Positions 651-7,237 of a DNA stretch of 8,851 nucleotides are shown here, piece by piece. This DNA is from a bacterium (GTDB lineage Bacteria; Blakebacterota; Blakebacteria; Blakebacterales; Blakebacteraceae). The notes below the pieces were generated by a model that was not told the DNA's origin, did no database searches, and saw nothing but the letters and a program-made list of their open reading frames with translations. The stretch lies in the NCBI GenBank assembly GCA_025774615.1, contig JALGVQ010000122.1:1-8851 (forward strand), written 5' to 3'. The position numbers were made by a program, and so were the translations under genes. The number at the start of each line of letters is the position of its first letter. Positions within the stretch are counted from its first letter, which is position 1.

Positions 651-1385
651 TCACTGCCTCCGCAGAACCTCGACCAGATAACGCATCTCATCGTCGAGGT
701 CTGCTTCATTGCTGACCGTCTCCGCGATGACGGCCCGCAACAGTGTGCGGTATCGTTTTCGCAGCCGGTGAATGGCGACCTTGACTGCGTCCTCGGTCAT
801 TTCCAGTCGGGCGGCGATCTCCTCCCGGGGCGATCCATCCTCCCCAGTGAGACTGCCCTTGAGTGCCTCGAACTGTTCACTTTTACCGGCCTTCACCATT
901 TCGTCGCGCAGGGTCTGCAGGGCCCCGGCAATGGTCTCGAGTGCCCACTCACGATCGAACAGGTGTTCCGGGTTTTCCGACTGCTTCGATGCTTCGGCGT
1001 ATCGGACCTCCGGATCAAGTGCGTCCCATTCGACGAATTGCACCTGGCCGCCGCGCTTCACTGTTTGGGCCCGATGCCACTCATTAGCCAGGAAATGCTT
1101 CATCGCGCCCAGCAGGTAAGAGCGCAACCGGCCTCGCTCCCGATACGCCGAAGCAAACCCACCCGTCTCGATGATTCGCGTAAAGAAGGCCTGTGTGAGG
1201 TCTTGGGCGTTGGTTTCTGAATATCCGCGGCTTCGCACGAAGGCATAGAGAGGATACCAATACGTCCGGCACAGTTCCTCGAGTGCTTCACGAGCACGGG
1301 TCTGACTCGCTTCGTCGGACCTGGCCGCACTCACGAGGCTCCAGTGGGTGGTGGTAAACTGGCGAGGATCGGTAGAATCTATCAT
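651..1385 (-). CDS. ECF-type RNA polymerase sigma factor of the kinase-associated class
   Basis: A 244-aa sigma70-family factor that would direct RNA polymerase to a dedicated promoter set. The N-terminus (RQFTTTHWSLVSAAR) is the characteristic opening of ECF factors found beside Ser/Thr kinases. Region 2 lies at about 37-110, including CRTYWYPLYAFVRSRG and AQDLTQAFFTRI, with a core-binding and -10-recognition helix around RSYLLGAMKHFLANEWHR. Region 4 lies at about 145-218, with a helix-turn-helix at REEIAARLEMTEDAVKVAIHRLRKRYR. The C-terminal tail (DDEMRYLVEVL) is also typical. It is longer than ordinary ECF factors (about 180-200 aa) because of the linker and tail. The start has only a weak ribosome site (AGG 13 bases upstream, 1399-1401) and lies 17 bases after the U-tract of the preceding gene's terminator. 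No zinc anti-sigma gene is adjacent; the downstream kinase is the likely regulator. The promoter is not obvious: it may lie in the 3' end of the upstream small gene, or expression may depend on read-through. Confidence 0.93.
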   Translation of the reverse strand: MIDSTDPRQFTTTHWSLVSAARSDEASQTRAREALEELCRTYWYPLYAFVRSRGYSETNAQDLTQAFFTRIIETGGFASAYRERGRLRSYLLGAMKHFLANEWHRAQTVKRGGQVQFVEWDALDPEVRYAEASKQSENPEHLFDREWALETIAGALQTLRDEMVKAGKSEQFEALKGSLTGEDGSPREEIAARLEMTEDAVKVAIHRLRKRYRTLLRAVIAETVSNEADLDDEMRYLVEVLRRQ

Positions 1386-1468: not shown

Positions 1469-1726
1469 TCACTTCTGGACTTTGATCAGCAGCTCATCAC
1501 CGTCCCGCTGGGTCTTGATCTCCATCTCGAGCAGACTGGCCGAGCGACGGACGCGATTCCGCAGCGTCGTCAGGTTCTCACCACGCCCCGGTTTCAGTAC
1601 GCCGACCCCGCCCTCTTTCTGAAGTGTTTCCAGATATGCCATATATTCACGTGTGACACCATGTACACGACTTTTTGCGAAGCGCTTATCAGCATCTCCA
1701 CCCTTAATGTGTTTGAACTCGGCCAT
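1469..1726 (-). CDS. Small hypothetical protein, 85 aa, possibly nucleic-acid binding
   Basis: I do not recognise the family. The product is basic and soluble, with no signal peptide or membrane segment. The N-terminal half is polar (KHIKGGDADKRFAKSR) and leads to a predicted helix (TREYMAYLETLQK). The C-terminal half reads ENLTTLRNRVRRSASLLEMEI followed by a short strand pair (KTQRDGDELLIKVQK). This Arg-rich helix plus beta-hairpin pattern resembles the C-terminal part of several small uncharacterised bacterial proteins that may bind DNA; that is only an impression. Evidence that it is a real gene: GGGAG nine bases before the ATG, a dedicated strong terminator after the stop, and an AT-rich upstream gap. 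It is transcribed toward the sigma-kinase pair. Alternative explanation: a conserved housekeeping small protein unrelated to the sigma locus. Confidence 0.75.
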   Translation of the reverse strand: MAEFKHIKGGDADKRFAKSRVHGVTREYMAYLETLQKEGGVGVLKPGRGENLTTLRNRVRRSASLLEMEIKTQRDGDELLIKVQK

Positions 1727-3146: not shown

Positions 3147-4163
3147 ATGCACGTGGTTCGCGTTCCAAAATTCGGCCCACCTGAAGTCCTTGAATATGTG
3201 GAGCAACCTGACCAGGAACCAGGACCGGGTGAGATCCGCGCGGTTGTCCGGGCTATCGGGATCAACTTCGCCGATATCACCGCCCGTATGGGTCTTTATC
3301 CCGATTCCGGTAAACCTCCATTCGTGACCGGATATGAATTCGCCGGTACTGTGGAACGCCTGGGGGAGGGAGTGGAGAATGTGAAGGAGGGCGACGAGAT
3401 CATCGGCATGAAGAATTTCGGTTGCTATGCCGACAGCGTTGTTACCTCAGCGGAGTTTGCTTTTCCTCTCCCCGATCGTCTTTCACCGGAGCAGGGCGCC
3501 GCGTTTCCGGTCACCTATATCACCGCCTGGCATGCGATGGTCTACCTGGGGAACCTCCATCCCGGTGAGTGGATACTGATCCAGAACGCCGGAGGTGGAG
3601 TCGGAACCGCTGCCATACAGATCGCCCGGCACCGTGGCGCCAGGATTGTGGGAACCGCCTCGGCCGCCAAACATGAGTTTATCCGGGGACTGGGTGTCGA
3701 CCATGTGATCGATTACCGTCAGGGAGACTGGGCTGAAAAGGTGATGGAGATCACCGACGGGAAGGGTGTCGAGATGATACTCAATCCGCTGGGGGGGCGT
3801 TCCCTGAAGACCGATTTCGATCTCCTGGCGCACACAGGTCGCCTGATCGCCTACGGTGTCTCAGCCGGAACGCGCGGCATGAGCAGGAATCTTCCGAGGG
3901 CGATCTGGAACATCTTCCGTTCGCCGAAGTTCAGTCCGATCCAGATGATGATGAAGAACCGGGGCGCGTTCGGGGTACACATCGGCCACCTCTGGCACCG
4001 TCAGGAGGTCCTCGCGGGAGAGATGGCCGCGATGAGGGACCTGCTCGTTGACGGCATCCTCGACCCGATCATCGACACTACTTTTCCCCTCCAGGAAGCG
4101 GCGAAGGCGCACCGTTACATCCAGGACCGGAAGAATCGGGGAAAAGTCATACTGACGGTCTGA
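3147..4163 (+). CDS. Zinc-independent NAD(P)-dependent oxidoreductase, quinone oxidoreductase / VAT-1-like
   Basis: A 338-aa cytosolic medium-chain dehydrogenase/reductase. The N-terminal catalytic fold shows GINFADITARMGLYPD (38-53) and PPFVTGYEFAGTVERLGEGV (57-76), typical of the quinone oxidoreductase group. The Rossmann domain has the cofactor loop AGGGVG (148-153) after WILIQ. NPLGG (213-217) and GRLIAYG (231-237) lie where this family places them. Only one cysteine (Cys93) is present and the zinc ligands of alcohol dehydrogenases are absent, so it should use NAD(P)H without metal. The later segment (SPKFSPIQMMMKNRGAFGVHIGHLW, 259-283) resembles the VAT-1 branch. Substrate is unknown; quinones or enones are likely. 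Length is normal. The start has AGGGGG five bases upstream. It stands alone, divergent from the lipoprotein gene and convergent, with 17 bp between stops, with the peptidase gene. Confidence 0.92.
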   Translation: MHVVRVPKFGPPEVLEYVEQPDQEPGPGEIRAVVRAIGINFADITARMGLYPDSGKPPFVTGYEFAGTVERLGEGVENVKEGDEIIGMKNFGCYADSVVTSAEFAFPLPDRLSPEQGAAFPVTYITAWHAMVYLGNLHPGEWILIQNAGGGVGTAAIQIARHRGARIVGTASAAKHEFIRGLGVDHVIDYRQGDWAEKVMEITDGKGVEMILNPLGGRSLKTDFDLLAHTGRLIAYGVSAGTRGMSRNLPRAIWNIFRSPKFSPIQMMMKNRGAFGVHIGHLWHRQEVLAGEMAAMRDLLVDGILDPIIDTTFPLQEAAKAHRYIQDRKNRGKVILTV

Positions 4164-4180: not shown

Positions 4181-5761
4181 CTACGGCCTGTCTGCCATCT
4201 GGTAGAGGGTCAGGTAGACGACCAGCGTAGTACGGTAGAACGCCTCGTAGTCGATGTTCTCCGGCACATCAGCCGCCGTATGGGCCCGACCCGGCGCCCC
4301 TGAACTGTGGAAATAGACTGTCGGCACCCCGGCATTGACGAATGCGGAGTGGTCGCTTGCTCCCGCTACGGCCGGTGTCGGATCCCGCTCTTCGATGCCG
4401 AATCCCCCGTAGAGCCGGTCGGCATCGATCAGGTACTGCTGGAAGATGGGCGTGCTCGCCCCGCCATCCATGCTGAGCCGAGGGCCGGTCCCGACCATGT
4501 CGAGGTTTATCATTCCCACGGCCTTTGAGAGCGGGCGGGGGGGATTCGCGGCGAAATATTCCGAACCGAGCAGGAAGAGTTCCTCTCCAGCAAAGAGGAC
4601 GAAGCAGACAGACCTGCGCGGCTTGATCGCCGAGCGTGCCATCGCTTCGGCCATCGCCATGATCATGACACTGCCCGAAGCGTTATCCTGCGCACCGGGA
4701 TACACGATCCCTGCCTGCTGGCCCACGTGATCGAGATGCCCGCCGACGATGATGTATTCATCCGCCACTGAGGGATCACTCCCCTCGATCCAACCGACCA
4801 CATTCCATGTATCCGCCCTGGCCGTGTATTCAGCACCGGCCTCCATTGTGACCCGGGTTCTCAATTCGAGTGAGAGGGGCCTGCCGGTATCGGCGATCCT
4901 CCGGCGCAGTGCTACCGCGGTGTGCGGGAAACCGTAGAGAAGGTCGTCGGCGATCCGGTTCCGGATCGAAAGGATCGGCATGTCCTCCTGATGCTCACCC
5001 TCCTGGCCGTGATAGACACTGACGATCGGTGAGAGGGCGGCCTCTCCGGGATCGTCGATCAGAAGTATCCCTTTTACACCCCGTTCCGCCGCCAGAGTCG
5101 CCTTGTAGCGGGGCCGACTCTTCTCACCCCAATCGCCGGTACCCGGCGGTGTCCCCATGATCATCAGGGCCACCTTTCCCATGACATCCACTCCCGCGTA
5201 ATCATCCCAGCCTTTTTCGGCGTCGACCAGGCCGTATCCGATGAACACGACTCCGGCGTTCTCCACTCTGCCGCTGCCGGTGAATCCACGGGCGACATAG
5301 TCCCGGCCGAACCAATAGGGTGGGCCGCTCCAACCGTCGTATTCGACCTTCAGTTCCATGGGGCCGGTGATATTGTTCGCTTCCACCGTGAACGGCTGAA
5401 GGAAGGATCCTCCCGGGCCGCCCGGGACAAGGCCGGCTGCCCGGAAGTGCTCCGCTCCGAAACGGGCTGCCAGGCCGTAACCGTCCGTTCCCGTGAGCCG
5501 ACCTTCGAATTCCGGAGAAGAGAGTTCGTAGATGGCCTTCTTCATCTCTTCCCGATCGATGAATGGCAACGCAATCGCGCCGCGCAAGATCGAGATGCCC
5601 GGCTGCTGTTCCTTCTGTTCCGCCACCGGCGGTCGCTGCTGCTCCTGGGAGATAGCCGTTCCTGGAGCGATGCATCCCGCGCCGAGCAACAGAGTCAGAA
5701 GAGAGGGCAGTGACCAGGCGAGTGAACGGGTGAAGAACCGGAACGTACGGGAAGGTGTCAT
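4181..5761 (-). CDS. Exported M28-family zinc metallopeptidase with PA domain
   Basis: A 526-aa peptidase, probably an aminopeptidase acting in the periplasm or at the cell surface. The N-terminus has a basic start and a hydrophobic stretch ending LLTLLLGAGC (Cys30). This may be a lipobox, but the -3 position is Gly, so simple Sec export is also possible. A PA-like insert spans about 150-300 (FIGYGLVDAEKGWDDYAG, AAERGVKGILLIDD). The M28 catalytic domain follows. Zinc ligands and active site are all visible: His342 and Asp345 in GGHLDHVG, Asp359 in GAQDNASG, Glu393 (general base) and Glu394 in AGEE, Asp421 in NLDMVG and His494 in RAHTAAD. His342, Asp359, Glu394, Asp421 and His494 fit the five metal ligands. 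All are intact, so the enzyme should be active. The start is supported by AAGGAG (5772-5777), ten bases upstream. It is a single-gene unit. Its substrate cannot be told from the sequence. Confidence 0.94.
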   Translation of the reverse strand: MTPSRTFRFFTRSLAWSLPSLLTLLLGAGCIAPGTAISQEQQRPPVAEQKEQQPGISILRGAIALPFIDREEMKKAIYELSSPEFEGRLTGTDGYGLAARFGAEHFRAAGLVPGGPGGSFLQPFTVEANNITGPMELKVEYDGWSGPPYWFGRDYVARGFTGSGRVENAGVVFIGYGLVDAEKGWDDYAGVDVMGKVALMIMGTPPGTGDWGEKSRPRYKATLAAERGVKGILLIDDPGEAALSPIVSVYHGQEGEHQEDMPILSIRNRIADDLLYGFPHTAVALRRRIADTGRPLSLELRTRVTMEAGAEYTARADTWNVVGWIEGSDPSVADEYIIVGGHLDHVGQQAGIVYPGAQDNASGSVMIMAMAEAMARSAIKPRRSVCFVLFAGEELFLLGSEYFAANPPRPLSKAVGMINLDMVGTGPRLSMDGGASTPIFQQYLIDADRLYGGFGIEERDPTPAVAGASDHSAFVNAGVPTVYFHSSGAPGRAHTAADVPENIDYEAFYRTTLVVYLTLYQMADRP

Positions 5762-5940
5762 TGTCGTGACTCTCCTTCGATGGAAGCGTTGATCGGAGAA
5801 CGATTACTGAACTCTGTCAGCACTCTATGGGAGAGGTCCTGATATGGCCAGATGAAACTATTCCGGTAAAAACTAGTAGTGGCTCCGATTATCCTTTTCT
5901 CCCACATGTGAATTTTGTATCAATATATGCAATTCGATCT
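5762..5940. other. Non-coding gap between the peptidase gene and the putative leader
   Basis: This stretch should contain the minus-strand peptidase promoter and, if the leader model holds, the plus-strand cysteine synthase promoter. I find no convincing -35/-10 pair for either. Visible structure: TGGGAGA (5828-5834) can pair with TCTCCCA (5898-5904) across 63 bases. AAACTA occurs twice (5855-5860 and again near 5870). There is an imperfect AT-rich palindrome around 5911-5935 (GAATT...AATTC). The open frames here have no recognisable protein content. Confidence 0.4.
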
Positions 5941-6124
5941 TTGACGTCGGGATGACGGTAAGACCAGGGTCGGCAAGGCAGAGCCGAATGCAAAACGGGT
6001 GGGCACTCTCTGGTCCCCGGATTCCTGATACCTGGATGGTCGGCCGTACTTCTTTGCGCTCGCATCGGAAACCATTCGGGTTGCTGCCCTCGTCACCCCC
6101 GTGGTGATGGGGGCGGCTTTTTTT
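5941..6124 (+). ncRNA. Candidate structured leader RNA or small RNA upstream of cysteine synthase
   Basis: The case rests on a strong plus-strand terminator (6083-6124) with no plus-strand gene directly before it and the cysteine synthase gene about 150 bp after it. Before the terminator the sequence folds readily. An 8-bp helix (5962-5969 with 6008-6015, core GACCAG/CTGGTC) encloses a hairpin TCGGC/GCCGA (5970-5974/5983-5987, 8-base loop) and a weaker TGC/GCA pairing. A bulged hairpin follows at 6017-6043. The segment GGGATGACGG (5949-5958) can pair at 9 of 10 positions with TCGTCACCCC (6090-6099), which is part of the terminator's 5' arm, so an anti-terminator is possible. I checked by eye for SAM-I, T-box, cobalamin, TPP, FMN, glycine and lysine signatures and none fits. 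It could be a riboswitch-like attenuator of unknown class or an independent sRNA. The 5' boundary is a guess. Confidence 0.35.
6083..6124 (+). terminator. Strong intrinsic terminator upstream of the cysteine synthase gene
   Basis: The 15-base arm GCTGCCCTCGTCACC (6083-6097) pairs throughout with GGTGATGGGGGCGGC (6103-6117), allowing three G-U pairs, around the loop CCCGT. Seven T residues follow directly (6118-6124). The T-tract makes it plus-strand only. The nearest upstream plus-strand gene ends at 4163 and a minus-strand gene lies between, so it most likely ends a leader or small RNA. Confidence 0.85.
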
Positions 6125-6243
6125 ATGCCCTGTCACGGGTAAGCAGTATATCAACATTGTTCTGAGTCGCGCGTGCGGGAACAAAGCCGGATCCCCCAGG
6201 TAGGCACACACATATCCTTATGCGATACACCGTCACAGACGAT

Positions 6244-6267
6244 GGAAAGTGGGAAAGCGGGAAAGGG
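6244..6267 (+). repeat. Three tandem purine-rich octamers at the cysteine synthase start
   Basis: GGAAAGTG, GGAAAGCG and GGAAAGGG are head-to-tail, followed by the related TGGCAAGG that runs into the GTG at 6275. The last copy supplies the best ribosome-binding sequence (AAGG about eight bases before GTG). If translation instead starts at ATG 6242 the repeat encodes a Gly/Lys-rich N-terminal tail. Confidence 0.7.
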
Positions 6268-6274
6268 TGGCAAG

Positions 6275-7189
6275 GTGCACGGAAACCTCCTCGATACTAT
6301 CGGAAATACTCCACTCGTCCGACTCGACTCTCTCAGCCCGGTACCGGGTGTCTCGATCTGGGGGAAGCTGGAGATGTTCAATCCAACCGGATCGATCAAG
6401 GACCGTATAGCGCTGCGGATGATCGAAGAAGCGGAGGAGCGGGGAGATCTCACCAGGGAGATGACGATCATCGAGGCAACGAGCGGGAATACCGGTATCT
6501 CGCTGGGTATGGTCTGTGCCCTCAAGGGGTATCGATGCAACCTCCTTATGAGTGAGGCGAAATCGATCGAGCGCCGATTCATGCTCCGTTACTGGGGCTG
6601 TGATCTCACCCTGACATCTGCCGATGACCACGATTCGGCCATCAAGGCCGCGAAGGAGCTTGCCGGATCGGGACGGGACGATCTCTTCTATATCAACCAG
6701 AACGAGAACCGGGACAACGTGACGGCGCACCGGGACGGGACCGGTCGGGAGATCGTAGCTGACCTGGAAGGGAAGGTCGACGCTGTGATCGCCGGATTCG
6801 GTACCGGAGGCACGCTCATGGGAATGGCAGAGGCGCTTCGAGAAGCCGGTGTGAACGCACCGGTCATCAGTGTCGAGCCTGTCATCGATGAGAGCAGGAT
6901 AGACGGGATCATGCGTTCGAACGGCGGGCACTATATGCCGACGATCTATAATGACGATCTTGTGGATGAGATCATGAGAGTCGAAGATCGTGACGCGATC
7001 GTCACCACTCAGCTCCTCGCCCGGCAGGAAGGTGTGTTCGCCGGTCTCAGTTCCGGGGCCACGGTCTTCGCGGCGGTCGAGCTGGCGAAGCGGATGAAAA
7101 AGGGAAACATCGTAGCCGTTATCGCCGACCGGGCTGAGCGTTACTTCTCGACACCTCTCTTCGACGAGGCAAAAGAGAAGGGTATCTGA
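6275..7189 (+). CDS. cysK: Cysteine synthase (O-acetylserine sulfhydrylase family, PLP-dependent)
   Basis: A 304-aa fold-type II PLP enzyme that makes L-cysteine from an activated serine (usually O-acetylserine) and sulfide in the cytosol. The N-terminus NLLDTIGNTPLVRL is the family signature. The PLP Schiff-base lysine is Lys42 in NPTGSIKDR, the same number as in E. coli CysK. The substrate loop is EATSGNTGISLGM, the phosphate-binding loop GFGTGGTLMG, and the pyridine-N serine lies in GLSSGATV. The ending DRAERYFSTPLF fits too. Length is normal (300-320). I chose GTG 6275 because it puts DTIGNTP at the usual distance and has AAGG eight bases upstream. ATG 6242 would add 11 residues (MESGKAGKGGK) but lacks a ribosome site; the frame stays open to GTG 6173. 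A CysM-type or O-phosphoserine-using enzyme cannot be excluded. Expression is probably controlled by the terminator at 6083-6124. Three 11-bp repeats surround its stop codon. Confidence 0.93.
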   Translation: MHGNLLDTIGNTPLVRLDSLSPVPGVSIWGKLEMFNPTGSIKDRIALRMIEEAEERGDLTREMTIIEATSGNTGISLGMVCALKGYRCNLLMSEAKSIERRFMLRYWGCDLTLTSADDHDSAIKAAKELAGSGRDDLFYINQNENRDNVTAHRDGTGREIVADLEGKVDAVIAGFGTGGTLMGMAEALREAGVNAPVISVEPVIDESRIDGIMRSNGGHYMPTIYNDDLVDEIMRVEDRDAIVTTQLLARQEGVFAGLSSGATVFAAVELAKRMKKGNIVAVIADRAERYFSTPLFDEAKEKGI

Positions 7190-7210
7190 AGGGTATCTGA
7201 AGGGTATCTG
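7178..7210 (+). repeat. Three perfect 11-bp tandem repeats spanning the stop codon of the cysteine synthase gene
   Basis: AAGGGTATCTG occurs three times without a mismatch, followed by decayed copies (AGGGAGTCTG, AGGCAACCTG, to 7230). Every copy is followed by A, so each junction gives TGA, at 7187, 7198, 7209, 7219 and 7229. Because 11 is not a multiple of 3, the first three fall in all three reading frames. The first copy encodes the protein's C-terminal Lys-Gly-Ile and its stop. Confidence 0.95.
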
Positions 7211-7237
7211 AGGGAGTCTGAGGCAACCTGAGAATAT

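Follow-up and report, generated by a model that had tools for sequence, protein, structure and literature searches.

What kind of RNA, if any, is ended by a strong terminator that precedes a cysteine synthase gene but follows no gene of its own strand? Such a terminator is found in the window of 8,851 nucleotides analysed here, which is one whole contig of a 3.3-Mb draft genome. In the original prediction, positions 5941–6124 of the plus strand were regarded as a possible leader RNA that folds like an aptamer and could switch the terminator by an alternative pairing. The lineage is sparsely sampled: comparison could draw on a single genus mate and two more members of the family, and the next relatives have only the domain in common.

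A strong terminator between divergent genes

The upstream neighbor, a gene for an M28 family peptidase (4181–5761; PF04389, E 1.3e-39), is divergent and lies on the minus strand; the genus mate has no true orthologue of it (best 32% identity). On the plus strand, positions 6275–7189 encode a PLP-dependent cysteine synthase of the O-acetylserine sulfhydrylase family with the PALP fold (PF00291), whose TIGR01136 score of 327.8 bits is slightly below the cut-off of 344. The GTG at 6275 is most likely its start codon: the alignment with the genus mate, at 76% DNA identity over 2.6 kb, breaks off ~16 nt before this codon. A CsgG-family gene is next after the cysteine synthase gene (cysK), and the order of cysK, csgG, and a sigma-factor gene is kept in the genus mate. 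The end of the cysteine synthase gene is a short direct repeat (7187–7215) in which GGGTATCTGA occurs ~3 times, giving a tandem duplication of the stop region. Downstream of cysK-csgG-sigma in the genus mate, a gene at 3347–3964 of L048 carries a twin-arginine-type signal, RRNFLHMLGLGAG, at its start; its product receives only a weak match to the TAT-signal family UCR_Fe-S_N in Pfam (E 0.005) and resembles precursors of redox enzymes.

Between the peptidase and cysteine synthase genes, an intrinsic (Rho-independent) terminator of the plus strand is located at 6083–6124. It has the G+C-rich hairpin and the following U-run that define this class: a perfect 15-bp stem (6083–6117; 10 of the 15 pairs are G-C) with a 5-nt loop and a stability of -28.4 kcal/mol is followed by seven T residues (6118–6124). 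Dinucleotide shuffling of the intergenic region 5762–6274 gave a maximum score of 12 in 3000 shuffles, against 25 for the terminator itself, and a perfect stem of at least 8 bp before a T-run appeared in just five of them. This is a real and strong terminator, far beyond chance, and it can act on the plus strand only, because the other strand has no T-run after the hairpin. The distance is 322 nt from the upstream gene and 150 nt to the start codon of cysteine synthase. The stem with its seven Ts and the setting, with no plus-strand gene before it and cysteine synthase after it, had both been described correctly in the original prediction.

Few terminators in this genome are strong. In 767 kb, a survey gave ~17 of them, of which 11 stand at the 3′ ends of sense genes; one of these lies behind rpmE, between rho and prfA. 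The counts are approximate, as genes were called by a simple ORF and codon-usage method that misses some. Among the strong terminators listed, 6083–6124 has the second highest score, and it alone has no sense gene upstream together with a sense gene downstream. The other terminators of this genome range from -13 to -31 kcal/mol. Within the window, a second intrinsic terminator is found on the minus strand at 1405–1433 (AGGGCAGCC TGAC GGCTGCCCT followed by five Ts), behind a small ORF (1469–1726, minus strand) and just before an ECF-type sigma factor gene (651–1385, minus strand); it is an ordinary terminator, either of a 3′ end or between genes.

Means over 302 genomes are -16.5 kcal/mol and 7.0 bp for 5′ terminators, and -20.2 kcal/mol and 7.6 bp for 3′ terminators (PMC2965389). 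The hairpin at 6083–6117 is much stabler than both, although the yardstick for 3′ terminators is shifted here because the genome is high in GC (0.58). Stability so far above that of typical 5′ regulatory terminators leans slightly against a switch, and the terminator behaves as a plain 3′ end would.

The upstream fold and the proposed antiterminator

In the minimum free energy (MFE) prediction, the part upstream of the terminator forms two structures on the plus strand: an extended hairpin that contains a 3x3 internal loop and, further in, a three-way junction (5946–6029), and a second hairpin, ACCTGGATGGT/ACCATTCGGGT (6030–6080). The three-way junction, predicted from this single sequence, consists of an 8-bp helix, GACCAGGG/CTCTGGTC, around two small hairpins. 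The closing helix of 8 bp with inner hairpins, on which the aptamer-like layout had been based, is therefore present in the predicted fold, but the stability of 5941–6080 is at chance: without the terminator its z is -0.7, and 109 of 500 shuffles are equally stable. The two parts taken separately give z = -1.56 for 5941–6030 (33/500 shuffles equally stable) and z = -2.0 for 6029–6080 (20/500). The z of the whole element including the terminator, -2.97, is mainly a contribution of the terminator, because 5941–6080 alone folds no better than shuffles.

The switching part of the original prediction, in which GGGATGACGG (5949–5958) pairs with 6090–6099 and breaks the terminator, fares worse. Nine of the ten positions can pair, with one A-C mismatch, but the best duplex between leader and terminator is equalled or beaten in 313 of 1000 shuffled leaders (31%). 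Furthermore, the forced alternative fold has -56.1 kcal/mol compared with -81.9 kcal/mol for the terminated fold, ~26 kcal/mol worse. The probability of the antiterminator pairing is 0.5 at position 6103, when the terminator is half made, and ~0 once the 3′ arm is formed. An attenuator has a mutually exclusive antiterminator able to compete with its terminator, and the pairing proposed for 5941–6124 is no such competitor.

Which transcript would end at the terminator

Since a strong terminator stands between the divergent peptidase and cysteine synthase genes, a short RNA is probably made. Most likely, this is a discrete RNA of ~180 nt that ends at the terminator and is an independent small RNA or else the leader of cysK. 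As for its mode of action, we slightly prefer, at a little under even odds, a discrete unit that is terminated mostly constitutively. A putative promoter in an A+T-rich stretch before 5941 would give a short plus-strand RNA whose 3′ end lies at the terminator; this RNA may be a small RNA or else a leader that persists as a short, stable transcript. Cysteine synthase would be transcribed from its own promoter in 6125–6274 or by minor read-through. The stretch where the promoter of the short RNA would be expected by its composition is 5895–5940; A+T is 0.60–0.68 over 5880–5939, compared with ~0.42 genome-wide.

Several observations argue for such a unit. The terminator is beyond chance, most other strong terminators of this genome stand 3′ of genes, and the hairpin far exceeds the averages of the 302 genomes. 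The alternative fold is too costly and its pairing is lost as soon as the 3′ arm exists. The 150 nt between the terminator and the start codon leave room for a separate promoter, and orthologues of cysK in other phyla manage without the element. On the other hand, some leaders do contain strong terminators, and the high GC of the genome shifts the comparison with 3′ terminators. Also, no plus-strand match to the sigma-70 consensus with at least 8 of 12 positions was found for either the short RNA or cysK (divergent regions of this genome are too few for a model of its own), and no homologue turned up that would speak for the RNA being kept as a gene of its own.

Indeed, the search for relatives gave chance matches at most. 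At the DNA level, the element is present once in its own genome, and 98 other genomes lack a counterpart; one apparent match in the genus mate (L011) fell within an operon for ribosomal proteins and was rejected as chance. Two covariance models, R1 from the single sequence of the whole element and R2 from that of its 90-nt upstream part, found chance matches only in up to 193 genomes, with the limited sensitivity of models built from a duplicated sequence; the match in the glnD/glnA region of the genus mate was among those dismissed. A plasmid search gave no match. Altogether, its own genome, three family mates, and ~190 others yielded no homologue. The cysK orthologue of the genus mate (80% identity) starts 71 bp into its contig, and the leader region is missing from the assembly. 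The next orthologues (54–59% identity, in other phyla including Acidobacteriota) have no terminator in their upstream sequence by eye.

Almost as plausible as the constitutively terminated unit, and close to it, is a cis-acting attenuator: 5941–6124 would be the cysK leader, with the choice between termination and read-through made by a signal from a metabolite, a tRNA, a protein, or a ribosome. It is supported by the setting, unique among the ~17 terminators in 767 kb: no sense gene is upstream, and a biosynthetic gene follows 150 nt downstream. Indeed, 6083–6124 passes the filter for putative attenuators, namely the same orientation as the downstream gene, a position nearer to that gene, and less than 300 nt from its start codon (Naville and Gautheret 2010, PMC2965389). 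Its weak points are that the aptamer-like fold and the antiterminator are both at chance level, that a regulatory terminator would usually be less stable, that Rfam gives no match, and that nothing similar is found at second cysK-like genes or at orthologues. A more specific form, an undescribed and lineage-restricted leader of cysteine synthase that senses cysteine, O-acetylserine, sulfide, or charged tRNA, is quite improbable; nothing was found in the analysis of this locus to show metabolite sensing or switching of the cysteine synthase gene by RNA.

Improbable too, but a shade less so, is that the terminator only insulates cysK by blocking stray plus-strand transcription from the divergent promoter region, with a functionless RNA before it. 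A strong hairpin that does not look switchable, in a divergent intergenic region of ~500 nt and behind an unremarkable fold, would suit such a role, but strong terminators are so rare in this genome that placing one for insulation alone would be unusual. Least probable is that the terminator ends a small protein gene or a peptide of a ribosome-mediated attenuator (ATG 5952 to TGA 6109, 51–52 codons): no stop codon interrupts the frame between 5952 and the terminator loop, but the frame has a strongly negative codon-usage score (-24), no cysteine codon, and no clear ribosome-binding site, and its stop codon falls inside the terminator hairpin, so a leader peptide was rejected.

What the evidence reaches is a strong terminator, probably together with a short RNA, before cysteine synthase, an ordinary arrangement and an ordinary class of feature.

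Comparison with known RNA elements

The original prediction had found no signature of a known riboswitch or T-box by eye, and the Rfam search agrees: none of the 4227 families of Rfam 15 matches at the gathering score. At E up to 10, the sole match is to a snoRNA model on the minus strand, outside the element (12.7 bits vs. 64). The 6S RNA model (RF00013) has no match in the window and only chance matches of 13 bits elsewhere in the genome; without a credible match to the covariance model, an identity as 6S RNA was rejected. The T-box model (RF00230) finds nothing at E ≤ 10, whether in the window or in the genome to which it belongs. A T-box read by eye, with TGC in a loop and TGGA at 6033, was also rejected, as there is no antiterminator around it and no model match. 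In the four genomes of the lineage (this one and three relatives, drafts 63–85% complete), the Rfam models find no credible 6S RNA or T-box. In the literature on cysteine synthase leaders, the titles and abstracts examined contain no matching element. To our knowledge, there is no established riboswitch for cysteine or O-acetylserine. If one were proven here it would be notable, since no Rfam family matches.

T-box leaders (RF00230) control amino-acid biosynthesis genes in Firmicutes. The element resembles them in having a terminator upstream of an amino-acid biosynthesis gene, whereas it has neither the UGGN bulge in a competing antiterminator nor the specifier loop in stem I, and no match to the model. 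To SAM and other riboswitch classes of Rfam, its likeness is that stems are laid out before a terminator, as judged by eye only, while it matches none of their models. With the unclassified 5′ terminators and putative attenuators of Naville and Gautheret, it shares the sense orientation, the distance of less than 300 nt from the start codon, and the position nearer to the downstream gene; it differs from their average 5′ terminator in a stem that is twice as long and much stabler (PMC2965389).
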